Source: a virus. From it: 23,203 nt of DNA. Made by a program: the position numbers and the translations under genes. The stretch is from the IMG/VR virus record IMGVR_UViG_3300031963_011286, positions 1 to 23,203 of that record, one strand, 5' to 3'. Under the pieces are notes generated by a model. It was given only the letters and a program-made list of their open reading frames with translations. It had not been told where the DNA came from and made no database searches. Numbering within the stretch: the first letter of the stretch is position 1; each line of letters begins with the position of its first letter. Positions 1 through 7,636 of the stretch are shown piece after piece.

Positions 1-3000
1 CCACCGAGCTTCTCACCCGCGTGCTCACCGGCCGCAACCAGCAGGAAACTCCCAATGTCTCGCAGGCCGGGGCGTTGGAAATCGTCGCCGACCCCACGAA
101 CCTCATCCCCTTTGGAGCTGGAGCCAAGGCCATCGGCCTTTCCCGCCTCGGCAAGGTCGTCAGCTCCGAAGCCGCAGGCGCAATAGAATTCGCCGCAGGC
201 GGGCTCGTAAAAGGCAACGACGCCCTCGCAGAGCGCTTCGCCAATGTCGTCACCAATGCCACAGGATTCACGCCAAAGGATCTTACTGCCGCAGGCAAAA
301 TCCTTGATTTCGGAAAAAATGTCGGCATCGGCGGAGGTATCGCCGCAGGTGCTGCCGCAGTAGGCGCACCGCCCGAGGTCGCCGCCACCATCGCCGGGTT
401 CTACCCCGTCTACAAAGCAGGCTTCGGCGTGCTCCGCAAAATCGAGACCGGCGCAGGCACAGCCAAGATCATCCTCCGCGAATCTGCCGACGCCACCAAT
501 GGCCTCGACCAAGCCGCCCGCGCCGCAGTGTTAGCCAATCCCTCCGTTCCCCAAGCCTTCAAAGAAGTCCTCGAGCGACCCAGCCAGTTCGTGAGCATCG
601 AAAGCACCCCCGCACGCCTCGCTGCCAATCAAGCCCTCTCGCCGCAGATGCGAGCGCTCGCCAGCAAACTCTCCAACCCCGCCATAGTCCAAGCTGTGCG
701 CGGATCCAGCGCACTCGCCACAGGCGCAGTCAAAGGCGCCGCGGTCAACGCCCCCTTCGCACTCCTCGCCGCCAACGCAGGTCAAGACGAAGAAGCCGCC
801 GCCATCCTCGGCGCAGGCGCAGCTTTCGGTGCCGCAGGTGCAGGCGTGGAGCGCTTCACCGGCCTCCAGCAACGCCGCCAACAAGCCGCCATCAGCGATG
901 TGTCCCGCATGCTCGTCGATGTCGAACTCAACGGCGGAGATGTCGGCAAAATGATGTCCACCCAGACGCCAGACAGCCTCGTCAAGCTCGCCGCCATGCA
1001 GGGCACCTTCCGCAACGCCCTCGACTTCGTCCCGCTCAACGCCATCGACTACGAGAAAAATGTCTCATCCAATGGCGGGTCCGGCGCTGCCGGGCTTTTC
1101 CTCCAAGCCACCCCAGGCCAACGCGCCAAGGTCTACATCAACCTCGACGCCAAGCGCACCGGCGTAGAACTCCACGAATTCGGCCACGCCCTCCTCTCCA
1201 GCGGAGCCCTCGATGGTCAACAAAAATACGCCGCCCGCGCATGGGTTGATAAAACCTACGGCCTCGACGGCATCAACGCCCGAGCTGCCGAATACGCCAG
1301 CACCATCATCCGAGGCAAAAACTCCGAGGCATTCCCAGACGGCAACTTCGAGATCACCCCCACCACGCTCTCGAGCGAGATGGAGAACCTCTCCCAGGGC
1401 GGACTCGCCCGAGGCGACATGGACGGCCTCGACTGGGCGCGTGACGAAATCTTCGCCGAGACCTTCGCCCAAGCCAGCCAGACCATGGATTTCGCCGCCA
1501 TCCGCCGAGGCGCACCCGCAGGCGAAAACTTCCTCACCTTTGCCGAAGGCATCCTCGGCGCCCAAGCCCGAGCCCTCACCGCCAGCGGCATCCGCATCGA
1601 CGGCCAGACCGGCCGCCCGCTCGACACCCCCGGCAGCCTCTTCAAAGAAAACCCCCTCCTCGCAACCGACAAGGCGCTTCTCAACCAGCTCGGCACCTAC
1701 ATCAACAACTACCGGCAGTGGGCCAACAACCCCACGCACGAAAAACCCGCCGGCGTAAAGATCGCCCCCAGCGGCCGCGCCAGCGACCTCGCCAACAATC
1801 CCCAAGTCACCTTCTACGACCGAGGCGACGGCGTAAAAGCCAACGCCTTTGCCATCCAGGATCCAGTCACCGGCCAAGCCATCCTCCGCGACCAACGCGA
1901 CCTCAACGCCGAGCACGCCAAGCTCAAAGCCCAACTCAAAGCCCTCGGCGGATCCAAGCTCCTCGAGCCAAGCAACCCCGTCCTCGGCCCCAAAAAGACA
2001 GCCGACGGCCGCGTCACCATCCGAGGCAAAACCCTCCCGCAATCCTTCGACTTCCTCAACGGCTTCATGCCCCACATCCGCAACTTCGCCCGCCAGTTCG
2101 AGCAATTCGGCCAGACCGGCGAAAGCATGCAGGTCCGCTACCACGCCATCGGCAGCGGCGACTCCGGCGCCTTCCAGATCAAGAAACTCGGCAACCTCGA
2201 AGCCATCACCCGCGAGGTGCTCCCCTTCGAGTGGCAGCTCACCAAGGCCGGAAACCTCAACGCCGTCCTCCTCGACCTCACCCAATTCCGCAACCGCGCC
2301 ATGCGAGGCATCAACGACCGCAACGAAGCCCTCGCCCCCTTCAACTGGGAACTCAGCCAGGTCGAAACCGACCTCAAGCAGTGGATGGATAACCACCGCA
2401 ACAATCTCCCCGGCGAAAACAAAATCGGCACCGCCAAGCGCGACGCCATCAACTCCCTCGTCGGCCTCGCCACCAACTACAACCGAGGCAAAAACCCCCT
2501 CAACGGAGCCTTCGGCCCCGGCAGCGCCATCAAACAATTCCGCCTCGACCGCGTAGACGCCGCCATAGGCACCGGCCGCCAAGGCTTCCACTTCGACTAC
2601 GAAAAAGCCAACGGCAACCTCCTCCCCAACATCCCCGCCGCCATGCCGGACTTGTCGAAAGACCTGCCAACCGCTAAAGGCCAAGCCATGCCGGATATCA
2701 CAATCACGCCGGACGAAGCCAAACGGCAGGGATTGGTTGGCCCAGTTTATCATGGGAGCCCTGACTTTAAGGGGCAAAAATTTGATCCGAAATACAGGGC
2801 AAGAAATTCCGGCCTGTCTCGAGGTGGTTTTTCTTTCACCGATAATGTCGAGTCGGCAAAAGGCTATGCTTCAAATAAAATTGATTCCGCGCAGTCCGCA
2901 GTAGATTCGGCAAATGATGTTATGCGAGAGCTCGCAGGCAGAATGGATAACGGATTAAAAGTGGATGGGTTTGCAGACTCTGCCGAGTTGCCAGAATTCA

Positions 3001-4829
3001 ATTCCAGCTATGTGGACGACATTGAAAGCCTGGGAATTTATTTCGACGAGATCGCAAACAAGATTCCAAAAGACCTTGGAGATCGCCTTCGTGTTGCCGC
3101 AAGCAAAACAAACGAGCCCGCGAATCCTGTAGTTGTCGAAGCCTTTTTAAAGAATCCAAAAGTCAAGGAAATCAATGGCAAAAAACTTTGGCTCACAGAA
3201 AATCCAGATGACATTTTTGTATCAGGAACAACAAGACCCACCCAAGGCCAAGCCATGCCGGATGTGGTTCCAAATGTGGTGCCGGATAAAGGCGTCGAAA
3301 TGCCAGCGGGATCGATGACCCAGCTTTTTACCACGGCAGCAAAATCCTTGCCCAAGACAATCCCTCAAGCAAAGTCGGTGCCTATCGTCCGCGTGATGAT
3401 TCGTGAAAAGCTTTTCGATGACGAAGGCAAGCCTGTGCTGGATAAAAAGGGCAATCAAAAGGAGGGCATGACTCCAAAGCTGCGCGACAATACCGAAGTG
3501 AAATTTCAGCCAGGAAACTTCGATCTTCCCCTTCCAAATTATCAACTGGCAAAATCAAAATTCTCTCTCGGCAACAAGAACTTCATCAGCGAAGCGGCAA
3601 AAAACAGGGACAAGGTCGTAGCCGCTATTGAACAAGTAAACAGGGCGACTGAAGTAATTACCAACGACCCTTTCAAATTTACAGACCCCAAGGGATACGC
3701 CGAAATCATGCGAGACGCCGGCGTCACCAAAAACATCCTAGTCCCTCCGAGTGGCATCGACATGATGCTTAAGAGGCCAAAGGATTTCATCGCCCTACTA
3801 GATGGCGGATTCCATGGGCCCCGCACGGTCCAAGGAACAAAGGCCGCAGCCATGGCTGGCCTGGATGGAGTCGTGGAGATGCGCCAAGTGATCGGCGAAA
3901 AACCCACCGAGTTTGTCACGGCGCTGCACCACCTATGGGGCACGCTCTCCAAACAACTCCCGCCACTTGATCAGGAAGCCCTGTGGATGCGGCTTGTCTT
4001 GCAGCCGGAGGTCATCCAGCAAATCCAAAACTCTATTGATGGAACCTTCAAACTTAAAAAGGAACAATGGAAAACCATCGTGGACAAAGCCCGAAAAGCT
4101 ACCAAGGGGGAATACGGAAAGCTCGGCAACAATGCCACATCAAACGCGAATTCCTTCTATCTAATGCTGAAGAACCACAACGGTCGCTGGAACCAAGTGG
4201 CAAACCTGTATGCCACCGATTCCGCCATCGATATGCGTTCCAAATTTAATAGCCTCGGGCACGGCGCCACAGGCATCAAAAACAAAGTGCAGGGATTCAT
4301 TGGCCTCACCTTCGGCATCAAGGGAACCGTGTTGGACCGCTGGCGTTTCGTTGACCTCTACATGGCCCCAGTCATGCAGGCCACAGGCGCCCCGACGCAC
4401 CAGCACTACTTCCAATACACAGGCGATGCGAAGCGGATTCCAGAAGACCCGATTGGCATCTACGCAAACTACGGCACCATCGAGAACGACAACCCGGCAT
4501 TCAGCCTCGCCCTCTACAACGGCATCGACAGGGCCGCGCAAGCCGCCATCAATGCCTCGCCGGACCTACAAGCCTACCTTGGCAACCACGCCGATCCAGG
4601 CGGACTGCATTGGGTGACATGGAACGCAATCAAGAACGAGGCTGTAGGGCACTCGTCGCTGGATTTGACCAAGAATTTCCTCAAACAATTCCAACGGGAA
4701 GGAACGGCGCAGGATTGGCTTAAGTTTGCCAACTCATCGAAAGCGTATGTGGAAGGCCAAGCCGCCAATGGCCGTGAAATCATTAGACTTTCTTTGGACA
4801 ACGGCGTATTTGATTATTCAAGACAATGA
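1..4829 (+). CDS. Large polyvalent virion-type protein (zincin + ART-like domain), 5'-partial
   Basis: The frame is open to the left edge, so the N-terminus is missing; the first in-window start is GTG at 21, giving 1602 residues (numbering from there). Residues 1-290 are Gly/Ala-rich with hydrophobic stretches. HEFGH at 385-389 is a zinc-metallopeptidase motif, and E476/E480 in DEIFAETF are candidate third ligands. Residues about 903-1070 look like the ADP-ribosyltransferase-like domain of phage polyvalent proteins (YHGS at 910-913, GGFSFTDN at 935-942, then a GYAS segment). The last 500 residues have no clear match. Giant multi-enzyme proteins at the end of a phage late operon are usually internal virion proteins injected with DNA; that role is inferred here. 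Base composition changes near 2650, where the C-ending codons of the first part give way to mixed, more AT-rich usage. The stop overlaps the next ATG. Confidence 0.75.
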   Translation, partial: TELLTRVLTGRNQQETPNVSQAGALEIVADPTNLIPFGAGAKAIGLSRLGKVVSSEAAGAIEFAAGGLVKGNDALAERFANVVTNATGFTPKDLTAAGKILDFGKNVGIGGGIAAGAAAVGAPPEVAATIAGFYPVYKAGFGVLRKIETGAGTAKIILRESADATNGLDQAARAAVLANPSVPQAFKEVLERPSQFVSIESTPARLAANQALSPQMRALASKLSNPAIVQAVRGSSALATGAVKGAAVNAPFALLAANAGQDEEAAAILGAGAAFGAAGAGVERFTGLQQRRQQAAISDVSRMLVDVELNGGDVGKMMSTQTPDSLVKLAAMQGTFRNALDFVPLNAIDYEKNVSSNGGSGAAGLFLQATPGQRAKVYINLDAKRTGVELHEFGHALLSSGALDGQQKYAARAWVDKTYGLDGINARAAEYASTIIRGKNSEAFPDGNFEITPTTLSSEMENLSQGGLARGDMDGLDWARDEIFAETFAQASQTMDFAAIRRGAPAGENFLTFAEGILGAQARALTASGIRIDGQTGRPLDTPGSLFKENPLLATDKALLNQLGTYINNYRQWANNPTHEKPAGVKIAPSGRASDLANNPQVTFYDRGDGVKANAFAIQDPVTGQAILRDQRDLNAEHAKLKAQLKALGGSKLLEPSNPVLGPKKTADGRVTIRGKTLPQSFDFLNGFMPHIRNFARQFEQFGQTGESMQVRYHAIGSGDSGAFQIKKLGNLEAITREVLPFEWQLTKAGNLNAVLLDLTQFRNRAMRGINDRNEALAPFNWELSQVETDLKQWMDNHRNNLPGENKIGTAKRDAINSLVGLATNYNRGKNPLNGAFGPGSAIKQFRLDRVDAAIGTGRQGFHFDYEKANGNLLPNIPAAMPDLSKDLPTAKGQAMPDITITPDEAKRQGLVGPVYHGSPDFKGQKFDPKYRARNSGLSRGGFSFTDNVESAKGYASNKIDSAQSAVDSANDVMRELAGRMDNGLKVDGFADSAELPEFNSSYVDDIESLGIYFDEIANKIPKDLGDRLRVAASKTNEPANPVVVEAFLKNPKVKEINGKKLWLTENPDDIFVSGTTRPTQGQAMPDVVPNVVPDKGVEMPAGSMTQLFTTAAKSLPKTIPQAKSVPIVRVMIREKLFDDEGKPVLDKKGNQKEGMTPKLRDNTEVKFQPGNFDLPLPNYQLAKSKFSLGNKNFISEAAKNRDKVVAAIEQVNRATEVITNDPFKFTDPKGYAEIMRDAGVTKNILVPPSGIDMMLKRPKDFIALLDGGFHGPRTVQGTKAAAMAGLDGVVEMRQVIGEKPTEFVTALHHLWGTLSKQLPPLDQEALWMRLVLQPEVIQQIQNSIDGTFKLKKEQWKTIVDKARKATKGEYGKLGNNATSNANSFYLMLKNHNGRWNQVANLYATDSAIDMRSKFNSLGHGATGIKNKVQGFIGLTFGIKGTVLDRWRFVDLYMAPVMQATGAPTHQHYFQYTGDAKRIPEDPIGIYANYGTIENDNPAFSLALYNGIDRAAQAAINASPDLQAYLGNHADPGGLHWVTWNAIKNEAVGHSSLDLTKNFLKQFQREGTAQDWLKFANSSKAYVEGQAANGREIIRLSLDNGVFDYSRQ
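2677..3263 (+). repeat. 20-bp perfect direct repeat bracketing the ART-like segment
   Basis: AAGGCCAAGCCATGCCGGAT occurs at 2677-2696 and again at 3244-3263. The 567-bp offset is exactly 189 codons, so both copies are read in the same frame and encode the GQAMPD motif. A shorter relative (AMPD) lies just upstream near 2640. The repeats enclose the ART-like domain, which is visibly more AT-rich than the preceding 2.6 kb of the same gene. Confidence 0.85.
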
Positions 4830-5017: not shown

Positions 5018-5078
5018 CTTGCCTCGGACAACAACGGACAACAGCAACGCAAGTCGTTGCATTTAAGAAGCAGTTAAC

Positions 5079-5134
5079 CGACTCGAAATCGAACGTAGCG
5101 CAAGCTACCGCGGGTTCGAATCCCGCCCCTTCCG
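5079..5134 (+). tRNA. tRNA-Ser(CGA) 3' fragment, attachment core (not a full tRNA gene)
   Basis: Visible parts are an anticodon loop CTCGAAA at 5082-5088 (anticodon CGA at 5084-5086) closed by only three pairs, a long variable arm GTAGC-GCAA-GCTAC at 5095-5108 typical of class II tRNAs, a perfect T-arm GCGGG-TTCGAAT-CCCGC at 5110-5126, and a 3' acceptor strand CCCTTCC at 5127-5133 followed by discriminator G at 5134. Class II form, anticodon and G73 identify tRNA-Ser. No 5' acceptor strand (GGAAGGG) or clear D-arm lies upstream and the outer anticodon-stem pairs fail, so this is the 3' part a phage carries to restore the host gene on integration. Confidence 0.75.
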
Positions 5135-5138
5135 CTCC

Positions 5139-5157
5139 CTCCAGTAAGCCTCTGGAG
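5139..5157. repeat. Inverted repeat (6-bp stem) after the tRNA fragment
   Basis: CTCCAG at 5139-5144 pairs perfectly with CTGGAG at 5152-5157 across a 7-base loop, immediately downstream of the tRNA-like 3' end. There is no convincing U-tract, so it is only a possible terminator for the upstream late operon or the tRNA. It could also be part of the integrase or excision-factor binding region. Confidence 0.4.
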
Positions 5158-5282
5158 CCTTTACTAGTCTGCTTCTGCGGGCGGTCTTTGCTGTTGATAT
5201 TCGTTTAGGATTGTTTATCATTGTTGATGTTCAAGTGCAGTGTTTGGACAACGCCGGACAACACCGATCAACATCAATCTCT

Positions 5283-6284
5283 ATGAGTGCTTCGCCTTTT
5301 ATTGTCTCTCCCTACCCCGCTCGGCCTTCGTCTCCTTGGAAGCTGGAGATCAAGCAGTCGTTTGCCGGGAAAAAGATTCGTCGGTTTTTTGCCAGCGAGG
5401 CGGAGGCTTTTGAAGAAGGGGCGCGAATGGTTTCGCTGATTCGGGAAAAGGGAACGCAAGGATTGCAGGAGGAGGCGGGGCTTTTGGTTTCGCAGGCGGC
5501 GACCTTGTGGGTTCGGAGTGTGGACGCTCAAAGTAAAAGCCACCGAGATAAAATTGCGGCGACTCAGGTGGCGCTGATGCGGCAATTCCGCGGCCGTCTG
5601 GATGAGGTGATGCCGCTGGATGTGGACCGCTGGCTAAAGGAACTCGGGCGGACGGAGACGAGCAAGGCGATGTGGTTTCGTTACGCGAGGATGTTTTTCC
5701 GCTGGTGCTACCGGATGCGATTCATTGACCGCTCGCCGTTGGATGGGCTTCGCGCTCCTCGGGCGACACCTGGGCGAAATATTTTGACGCCCGAGCAAAT
5801 GAAGGAGCTGCTCAAGGCGCCGATGAGCGATGATGTGAAGGCGCTGGTGCTGCTGGGAGGATTTGCGGGCCTAAGGACGGTGGAGGTGGCTCGTATGAAT
5901 TGGGAAGACATCGATACGAAAACGAAACAGATCCATGTGCGGGCGGAGGTCTCGAAACAGCACGAGGGGATGCTGGAGCGGGTTGTCGATATGACGGAGC
6001 CGTTGATGAAGCGGAGGAAATTTTTCGAGAAGAAGAAGGGGCGGATTGTGGCGAACTCAATGGAGGCGCTGCATGAGCGCCGGCGGAAGGTGGCGTTGGC
6101 GCTTGGCTGGGAGGGCTGGCCGGACAACGCGCTGCGGCATTCGTTTGCGACCTACCATCTCGGGCGGTGCGGGAATGCGGGGCTTACTGGATATCAGATG
6201 GGGCACACTTCTCCGGCGATGGTGCAGCGGGTCTATGCGGTGCCGGCGGTGCGGGCGGATTGGCGGGCTTGGTGGCGGATTTAG
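5283..6284 (+). CDS. int: Tyrosine site-specific integrase
   Basis: With the ATG at 5283 the protein has 333 residues. The N-terminal 60 residues fit an arm-binding domain, 71-160 a SAM-like core-binding domain, and 168-325 the catalytic domain. Catalytic positions: R198 (GLRTVE), K225 (VSKQ), R285 (NALRH), H308 (GHTS) and the nucleophile Y318 (RVYAV). The first residue of the usual HxxR box is Asn282. It should catalyse recombination between the adjacent attP-like site and a host tRNA-Ser gene. A TTG start at 5211 would add 24 residues, but that extension is encoded by the arm-type repeats, so 5283 is preferred; neither start has a clear Shine-Dalgarno site. Confidence 0.9.
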   Translation: MSASPFIVSPYPARPSSPWKLEIKQSFAGKKIRRFFASEAEAFEEGARMVSLIREKGTQGLQEEAGLLVSQAATLWVRSVDAQSKSHRDKIAATQVALMRQFRGRLDEVMPLDVDRWLKELGRTETSKAMWFRYARMFFRWCYRMRFIDRSPLDGLRAPRATPGRNILTPEQMKELLKAPMSDDVKALVLLGGFAGLRTVEVARMNWEDIDTKTKQIHVRAEVSKQHEGMLERVVDMTEPLMKRRKFFEKKKGRIVANSMEALHERRRKVALALGWEGWPDNALRHSFATYHLGRCGNAGLTGYQMGHTSPAMVQRVYAVPAVRADWRAWWRI

Positions 6285-7256: not shown

Positions 7257-7424
7257 ATGCAGACAGCATATGAACGAACAAGCGTGAGTCTCCCGGCGGG
7301 CCTCATGGATTACCTAAAAGGAAAGAGTGAGCGGGTGGGCGCTCCGGTGAGTCGGTTAATCGCGGAGGCTCTCCGCGAGAAAATGACTCGGGAGGAAAAG
7401 GCGAAAAAGGGGGCGCGGAAATGA
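7257..7424 (+). CDS. Small ribbon-helix-helix protein, 55 aa
   Basis: Translating from ATG at 7257 gives MQTAYERTSVSLPAGLMDYL continuing KGKSERVGAPVSRLIAEALREKM, then a Lys/Arg-rich tail. The pattern strand TSVSLP, helix AGLMDYLKGKSERVG, helix PVSRLIAEALREKM is the RHH (CopG/Arc) fold. It is the first gene of the early operon and divergent from a second RHH regulator, so it may play the Cro-like role in the switch, possibly sharing operators. The stop overlaps the next ATG by four bases. The Shine-Dalgarno site is weak and lies inside the operator palindrome. Confidence 0.7.
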   Translation: MQTAYERTSVSLPAGLMDYLKGKSERVGAPVSRLIAEALREKMTREEKAKKGARK

Positions 7425-7636
7425 AATTGATGATCAGCGTCGAGGAGGCGTCGGAGTTCACGGGTTACGCGCCATTCACTCTCCGGTTGTTCTGCCGGTC
7501 TGGAGCTTTTACCGCCGAGAAGCCGAGGGGAAATCGGGGCGGATGGATGATTTTGCGGCCGTCGCTGGAGAAGTGGTGGGCAGCGAAGCGCCGCGCAACA
7601 ACGAACACCTACCAACAAGGAGGAGTCAAAATATGA
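7421..7636 (+). CDS. Excisionase-like small HTH protein, 71 aa
   Basis: MISVEEASEFTGYAPFTLRLFCRSG followed by GGWMILRPSLEKWW fits the winged-helix/MerR-like fold of excisionases and AlpA-type regulators (HTH_17): helix-turn-helix at about 5-28, wing with Trp, and a final helix ending in WW. In a temperate phage with a tyrosine integrase this suggests a recombination directionality factor or an early regulator. It is joined to both neighbours by ATGA overlaps. Confidence 0.65.
   Translation: MKLMISVEEASEFTGYAPFTLRLFCRSGAFTAEKPRGNRGGWMILRPSLEKWWAAKRRATTNTYQQGGVKI

Follow-up and report, generated by a model that had tools for sequence, protein, structure and literature searches.

The window, by which we mean the whole stretch of DNA analysed, is the entire IMG/VR record IMGVR_UViG_3300031963_011286, a linear fragment of 23,203 bp whose ends do not overlap. 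A phage attachment site (attP) occupies positions 5026-5272 and consists of a P arm, the 3' half of a tRNA-Ser(CGA) and a P' arm. It directly adjoins a tyrosine integrase gene that starts 20 bp past the P' pair. The features discussed below are the following.

5026-5042, + strand: P-arm pair of putative integrase arm-type sites, two copies of GGACAAC (at 5026 and 5036) at 10-bp spacing
5079-5135, + strand: attP core, 57 bp identical to the host tRNA-Ser(CGA) gene (exact match in contig JAPLTG010000032.1, L041)
5082-5088, + strand: anticodon loop CTCGAAA, presumed 7-bp overlap (crossover) region
5095-5108, + strand: variable-arm stem-loop, allele TAGC-GCAA-GCTA, at which alleles differ by paired changes (100% of cells paired)
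5110-5126, + strand: T-arm of the tRNA segment, its pairing kept across alleles
5127-5134, + strand: acceptor 3' strand CCCTTCC and discriminator base G73, invariant in all alleles and pairing with the host 5' strand GGAAGGG
5139-5157, + strand: hairpin CTCCAG...CTGGAG directly after the tRNA end
5246-5262, + strand: P'-arm pair of putative arm-type sites, two copies of GGACAAC (at 5246 and 5256)
5266-5272, + strand: degenerate third P' arm site GATCAAC, with CAAC preserved in nearly all relatives of the GGACAAC type
5283-6284, + strand: tyrosine integrase, 333 aa (PF00589, 1.2e-10; phrog_1 integrase, 1.3e-33)
7421-7636, + strand: small HTH_17-like protein (E 5e-5, just below the Pfam cut-off), candidate excisionase (directionality factor)

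The HTH_17-like gene near the integrase gene is conserved among relatives. Rightward beyond it lie genes for RecT, an exonuclease, a RuvC-like resolvase, a DnaB-like/AAA protein and terminase, and the right part of the window also carries an SU10-type capsid protein and additional large open reading frames. Left of attP, an open frame of more than 1,600 codons (21-4829) has related genes in two other genomes (G003 and G009) and no Pfam or PHROG match. The integrase itself has no close relative in the phage collection, where the best match is 33% identical.

The tRNA segment extends from the 5' strand of the anticodon stem to G73 plus one base. The earlier note had described the site as an attP built on the 3' segment of a tRNA-Ser(CGA), and had predicted that gene as the host attachment site (attB). 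Both proposals were borne out: 5079-5134 was found exactly in one public genome contig, from a Lake Pavin Verrucomicrobia metagenome-assembled genome (MAG; JAPLTG010000032.1), inside an intact tRNA-Ser(CGA) gene called by ARAGORN. The end of the core at 5134 needs adjustment, since identity with the host continues to 5135 before the sequences part: positions 5135-5137 read CTC in the window and CCA in the host gene. Integration with this attP would thus remove the encoded CCA end; L002 and other relatives have CCA. The general tRNA core pattern is carried by 159 of the 213 genomes of the same order. Phage and host sequences occur together in one MAG (G039), in which a phage contig encoding an integrase 86% identical to that of the window, with the same GGACAAC pairs and an intact attP, has a core identical over 53 nt to a full tRNA-Ser(CGA) gene on another contig.

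The segment lacks the 5' half of a tRNA, and for this reason ARAGORN called none in the window. All 12 core alleles found among relatives yielded a tRNA-Ser(CGA) call once the 5' half of the host gene was added, and attP by itself did not. Matches of Rfam models to the segment (Plastid-psbl-rps4 in antisense, Deinococcus Y RNA and the T-arm of tmRNA) were weak and partial, and were set aside as explained by likeness to a tRNA. The first of these (RF04351) matches 5085-5134 on the minus strand, antisense to the tRNA-Ser segment, so the model may itself contain an antisense trnS. Most relatives have a hairpin at the place of 5139-5157 with an altered sequence, and this hairpin may possibly be a terminator or processing signal of the regenerated tRNA.

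The anticodon loop CTCGAAA is invariant in all 41 attPs compared, and identity between attP and attB starts 3 nt before it. Crossover probably takes place within this loop, a placement based on the start of identity and on the known anticodon class of crossover described for Islander, whose attPs of about 250 bp contain a tRNA fragment that restores the gene (PMC4383910).

GGACAAC pairs flank the core on both sides, with the four exact copies and the degenerate copy at 5266 where the earlier note had placed them; its suggestion that they specify the integrase arm-site sequence is supported by their presence in the attPs of related phages. The motif GGACAACNNNGGACAAC, allowing at most one mismatch, occurs twice in the window compared to 0.00 times across 100 dinucleotide shuffles. 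The GGACAAC type of arm was found in 20 attPs, with both P-arm copies exact in 18 of them and the distance of the P-arm pair to the anticodon loop fixed (-56/-46) in all except L038. A sister clade of 21 attPs has TTGGCAC in the same places, and the switch between the two types represents one change on the integrase tree. Compared with this clade, the window integrase is 82-85% identical in the catalytic part, 44-45% identical over residues 9-70 and 41-42% identical over residues 71-160. The L038 integrase, at 50% overall identity, keeps both GGACAAC and the N-terminal motif SPYPARP..PWKLE.

These patterns fit GGACAAC pairs being arm sites bound by the N-terminal domain of the integrase, an assignment supported at the level of sequence because the TTGGCAC clade combines pairs in the same places with a diverged integrase N-terminus. 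The link to the N-terminus is not exclusive, since residues 71-160 diverge equally in that clade. The repeats could instead bind a repressor or another factor, as the position of the right pair just upstream of the integrase gene, near a promoter-like site, might suggest. We consider this very unlikely, given that all relatives have a pair on either side of the core, that the distance of the left pair to the core is nearly fixed, and that the repeat sequence changes together with the N-terminal region of the integrase.

The arrangement is general in this phage group. Among 39 loci of integrase relatives in IMG/VR, every one has attP before the integrase gene with the same layout. A scan of the viral collection found the core pattern in 42 contigs, which belong to this phage group apart from L119; these comprised relatives already known and four contigs with the same arms that end before the integrase gene (L121, L126, L129 and L138). 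L119 was the sole hit when viral contigs were scanned for the integrated junction, and it was rejected: it has an intact tRNA-Ser(CGA) gene, and no relative of this integrase was found beside it. Four genomes of 37.7-40.4 kb (G005, G009, G013 and G018) have exact 127-bp terminal direct repeats and therefore close into circles with attP internal, as expected from the claim in the earlier note that the genome is unintegrated or circularly read. That claim holds for these relatives but not demonstrably for the window contig, which, like G001 and G003, showed no closure by terminal repeats. G009 shares most of the window genes, with terminase, capsid and portal-position proteins 76-81% identical, which would make the window about 57% of a genome as large as that of G009.

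A tRNA fragment and an integrase gene also occur together at the ends of prophages, so the site might be an attL or attR, the boundary between host DNA and a prophage that is integrated or has decayed. We regard this as extremely improbable. The core has an arm pair to its left and another to its right, it has no tRNA 5' half, whereas the attL sites of G236 and G032 do, and in related circular genomes the site is internal and flanked left and right by phage genes. At no related phage site was the fragment replaced by a full tRNA-Ser gene. The integrated form was seen naturally in G236 and G032 (integrases 57% and 47% identical), in which a complete tRNA-Ser(CGA) gene is followed by a GGACAAT or GGACACA pair and then the integrase gene, consistent with regeneration of the tRNA upon integration. 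Integration behind tRNA-Ser(CGA) was seen in these two more distant relatives but in none of the close ones, as no integrated copy of a relative with an integrase more than 60% identical was found.

Taken together, the window almost certainly contains a complete attP of a temperate tailed phage of about 40 kb that infects freshwater Verrucomicrobiota and targets the host tRNA-Ser(CGA) gene. In the mechanism we envisage, the N-terminal domain of the integrase would contact the GGACAAC pairs, and strand exchange with the host tRNA-Ser(CGA) gene would occur at the anticodon loop (5082-5088), the exact crossover bases being predicted. Integration would unite the host 5' tRNA half with the phage 3' half into a whole tRNA-Ser that precedes the P' arm and the integrase gene, leaving the P arm at the other junction together with the 3' half displaced from the host gene. 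Excision would presumably depend on a separate factor.

The 12 alleles of the tRNA segment are distributed among 41 attPs. In the 11 alleles of equal length, every variable-arm and T-stem position is paired, with 23 double changes versus 7.7 in shuffles that take no account of relatedness. No variation was seen at the beginning of the anticodon stem or in the acceptor strand, the parts that must pair with the host 5' half, although the search patterns required some bases of these parts. The paired changes suggest that attP tRNA fragments are under selection as working tRNA halves. Mapped on the integrase tree, the alleles have undergone no fewer than 14 switches, and allele TAGCGCAAGCTA is found on separate branches. 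In some phage pairs the allele is switched and both flanks are nearly unchanged; for example, L023 and L024 differ at 7 of 30 positions in the block, at none in the right flank and at one in the left 60 nt. Four alleles are exactly those of host genes: that of the window (G024), that of L005-L008 (G040, G042 and G047), that of L010 (G045) and that of the G039 phage (its own host, G039). A class-wide scan of 384 genomes, with a pattern that did not cover every allele, found no ATCGGCAACGAT, CAGGGCAACCTG or AGCGGCAACGCT allele. For alleles with no match in the searched genomes a host origin is our inference, and exchange between phages is also possible.

One possibility, which we put forward tentatively, is that the tRNA half of attP is actively exchanged as a block with host tRNA genes while the phage flanks are kept. 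If exchange took place solely at the anticodon loop, allele and integrase gene would stay together, which points to a second exchange at the acceptor end or to gene conversion. For such a second exchange the phage could draw on the exonuclease, RecT and RuvC-like resolvase that it encodes. Alternatively, the alleles may have arisen by point mutation inside the phages, as the single core base that separates L009 from L010 might suggest, along with the failure to find hosts with the ATCGGCAACGAT and CAGGGCAACCTG alleles among the genomes searched. Point mutation is an unlikely source, however, of 7 or 8 differences packed into 30 nt between flanks that differ little (as in L023 and L024), of stem pairs that all stay paired, of the same allele in distant phages, or of four alleles that equal host genes exactly. 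If block exchange does occur, these phages would collect host tRNA alleles and spread tRNA halves among related bacteria. Block-wise exchange would be only mildly surprising; the unusual part is that near-identical phages have different host-like tRNA halves, and this makes renewal of the attP core testable. Our literature search found no paper on exchange of tRNA halves between attP and host, which does not establish that the literature contains none.

This kind of attachment site is already known. Like Islander class A (PMC4383910), the site combines an attP of about 250 bp, a 3' tRNA fragment through which integration restores the gene, and a tyrosine integrase; it differs in its freshwater Verrucomicrobiota host and phage lineage, its GGACAAC arms and the occurrence of several natural core alleles in a single group of phages. 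Among described cases of core divergence, the nearest is mycobacteriophage Boilgate (PMC10865867), whose attP at tRNA-Lys(TTT) (attB-4), immediately upstream of the integrase gene, has a 43-bp core over the tRNA 3' half with five mismatches to attB and an attL tRNA that can still fold. The two sites share their position just before the integrase gene, a tRNA 3'-half core, core divergence with a foldable tRNA and putative flanking arm-type sites; however, phage and host are unrelated, and Boilgate has five mismatches in one phage compared to 12 alleles here. Fionnbharth, an example of tRNA-dependent lysogeny (PMC10865867), likewise has a lambda-like tyrosine integrase, paired arm sites and a tRNA gene target. 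In Fionnbharth-type phages the core spans about 10 bp and an entire replacement tRNA gene is present, whereas the core here is 57 bp and the window, an incomplete genome, carries no tRNA gene, which sets the site apart from tRNA-dependent lysogeny. The present analysis names a host and an integration site for a widespread, uncultured Verrucomicrobiota phage group, in which one integrase group appears, from its sequences, to have two natural arm specificities on one core.

More distant integrases (48-50% identical; L042, L045 and L047) accompany tRNA-Leu(CAA)-like attP cores with GGGCAAC or GGCACAA pairs, and intact tRNA-Leu(CAA) genes are present in G024, G039 and G032. The tRNA-Leu(CAA)-like cores suggest that the target of the subfamily has shifted from one class II tRNA gene to another. 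The attP variable arm in G024 and G039 differs from that of the host's own tRNA-Leu(CAA). The prophage of G032 could not be bounded, as its attL and the matching attR-like site are on different contigs. These halves of a site with the same core (L052 on contig C2 and L095 on contig C3) lie on two large contigs, far from the contig ends (about 36 kb from one end for L095), suggesting a rearranged prophage or a misassembly. G086 and G087 each have an intact tRNA-Ser(CGA) gene and a 3' fragment 21 and 25 kb away, respectively (L091/L092 and L093/L094), which appear to bound other elements; the two copies in G087 are different alleles.
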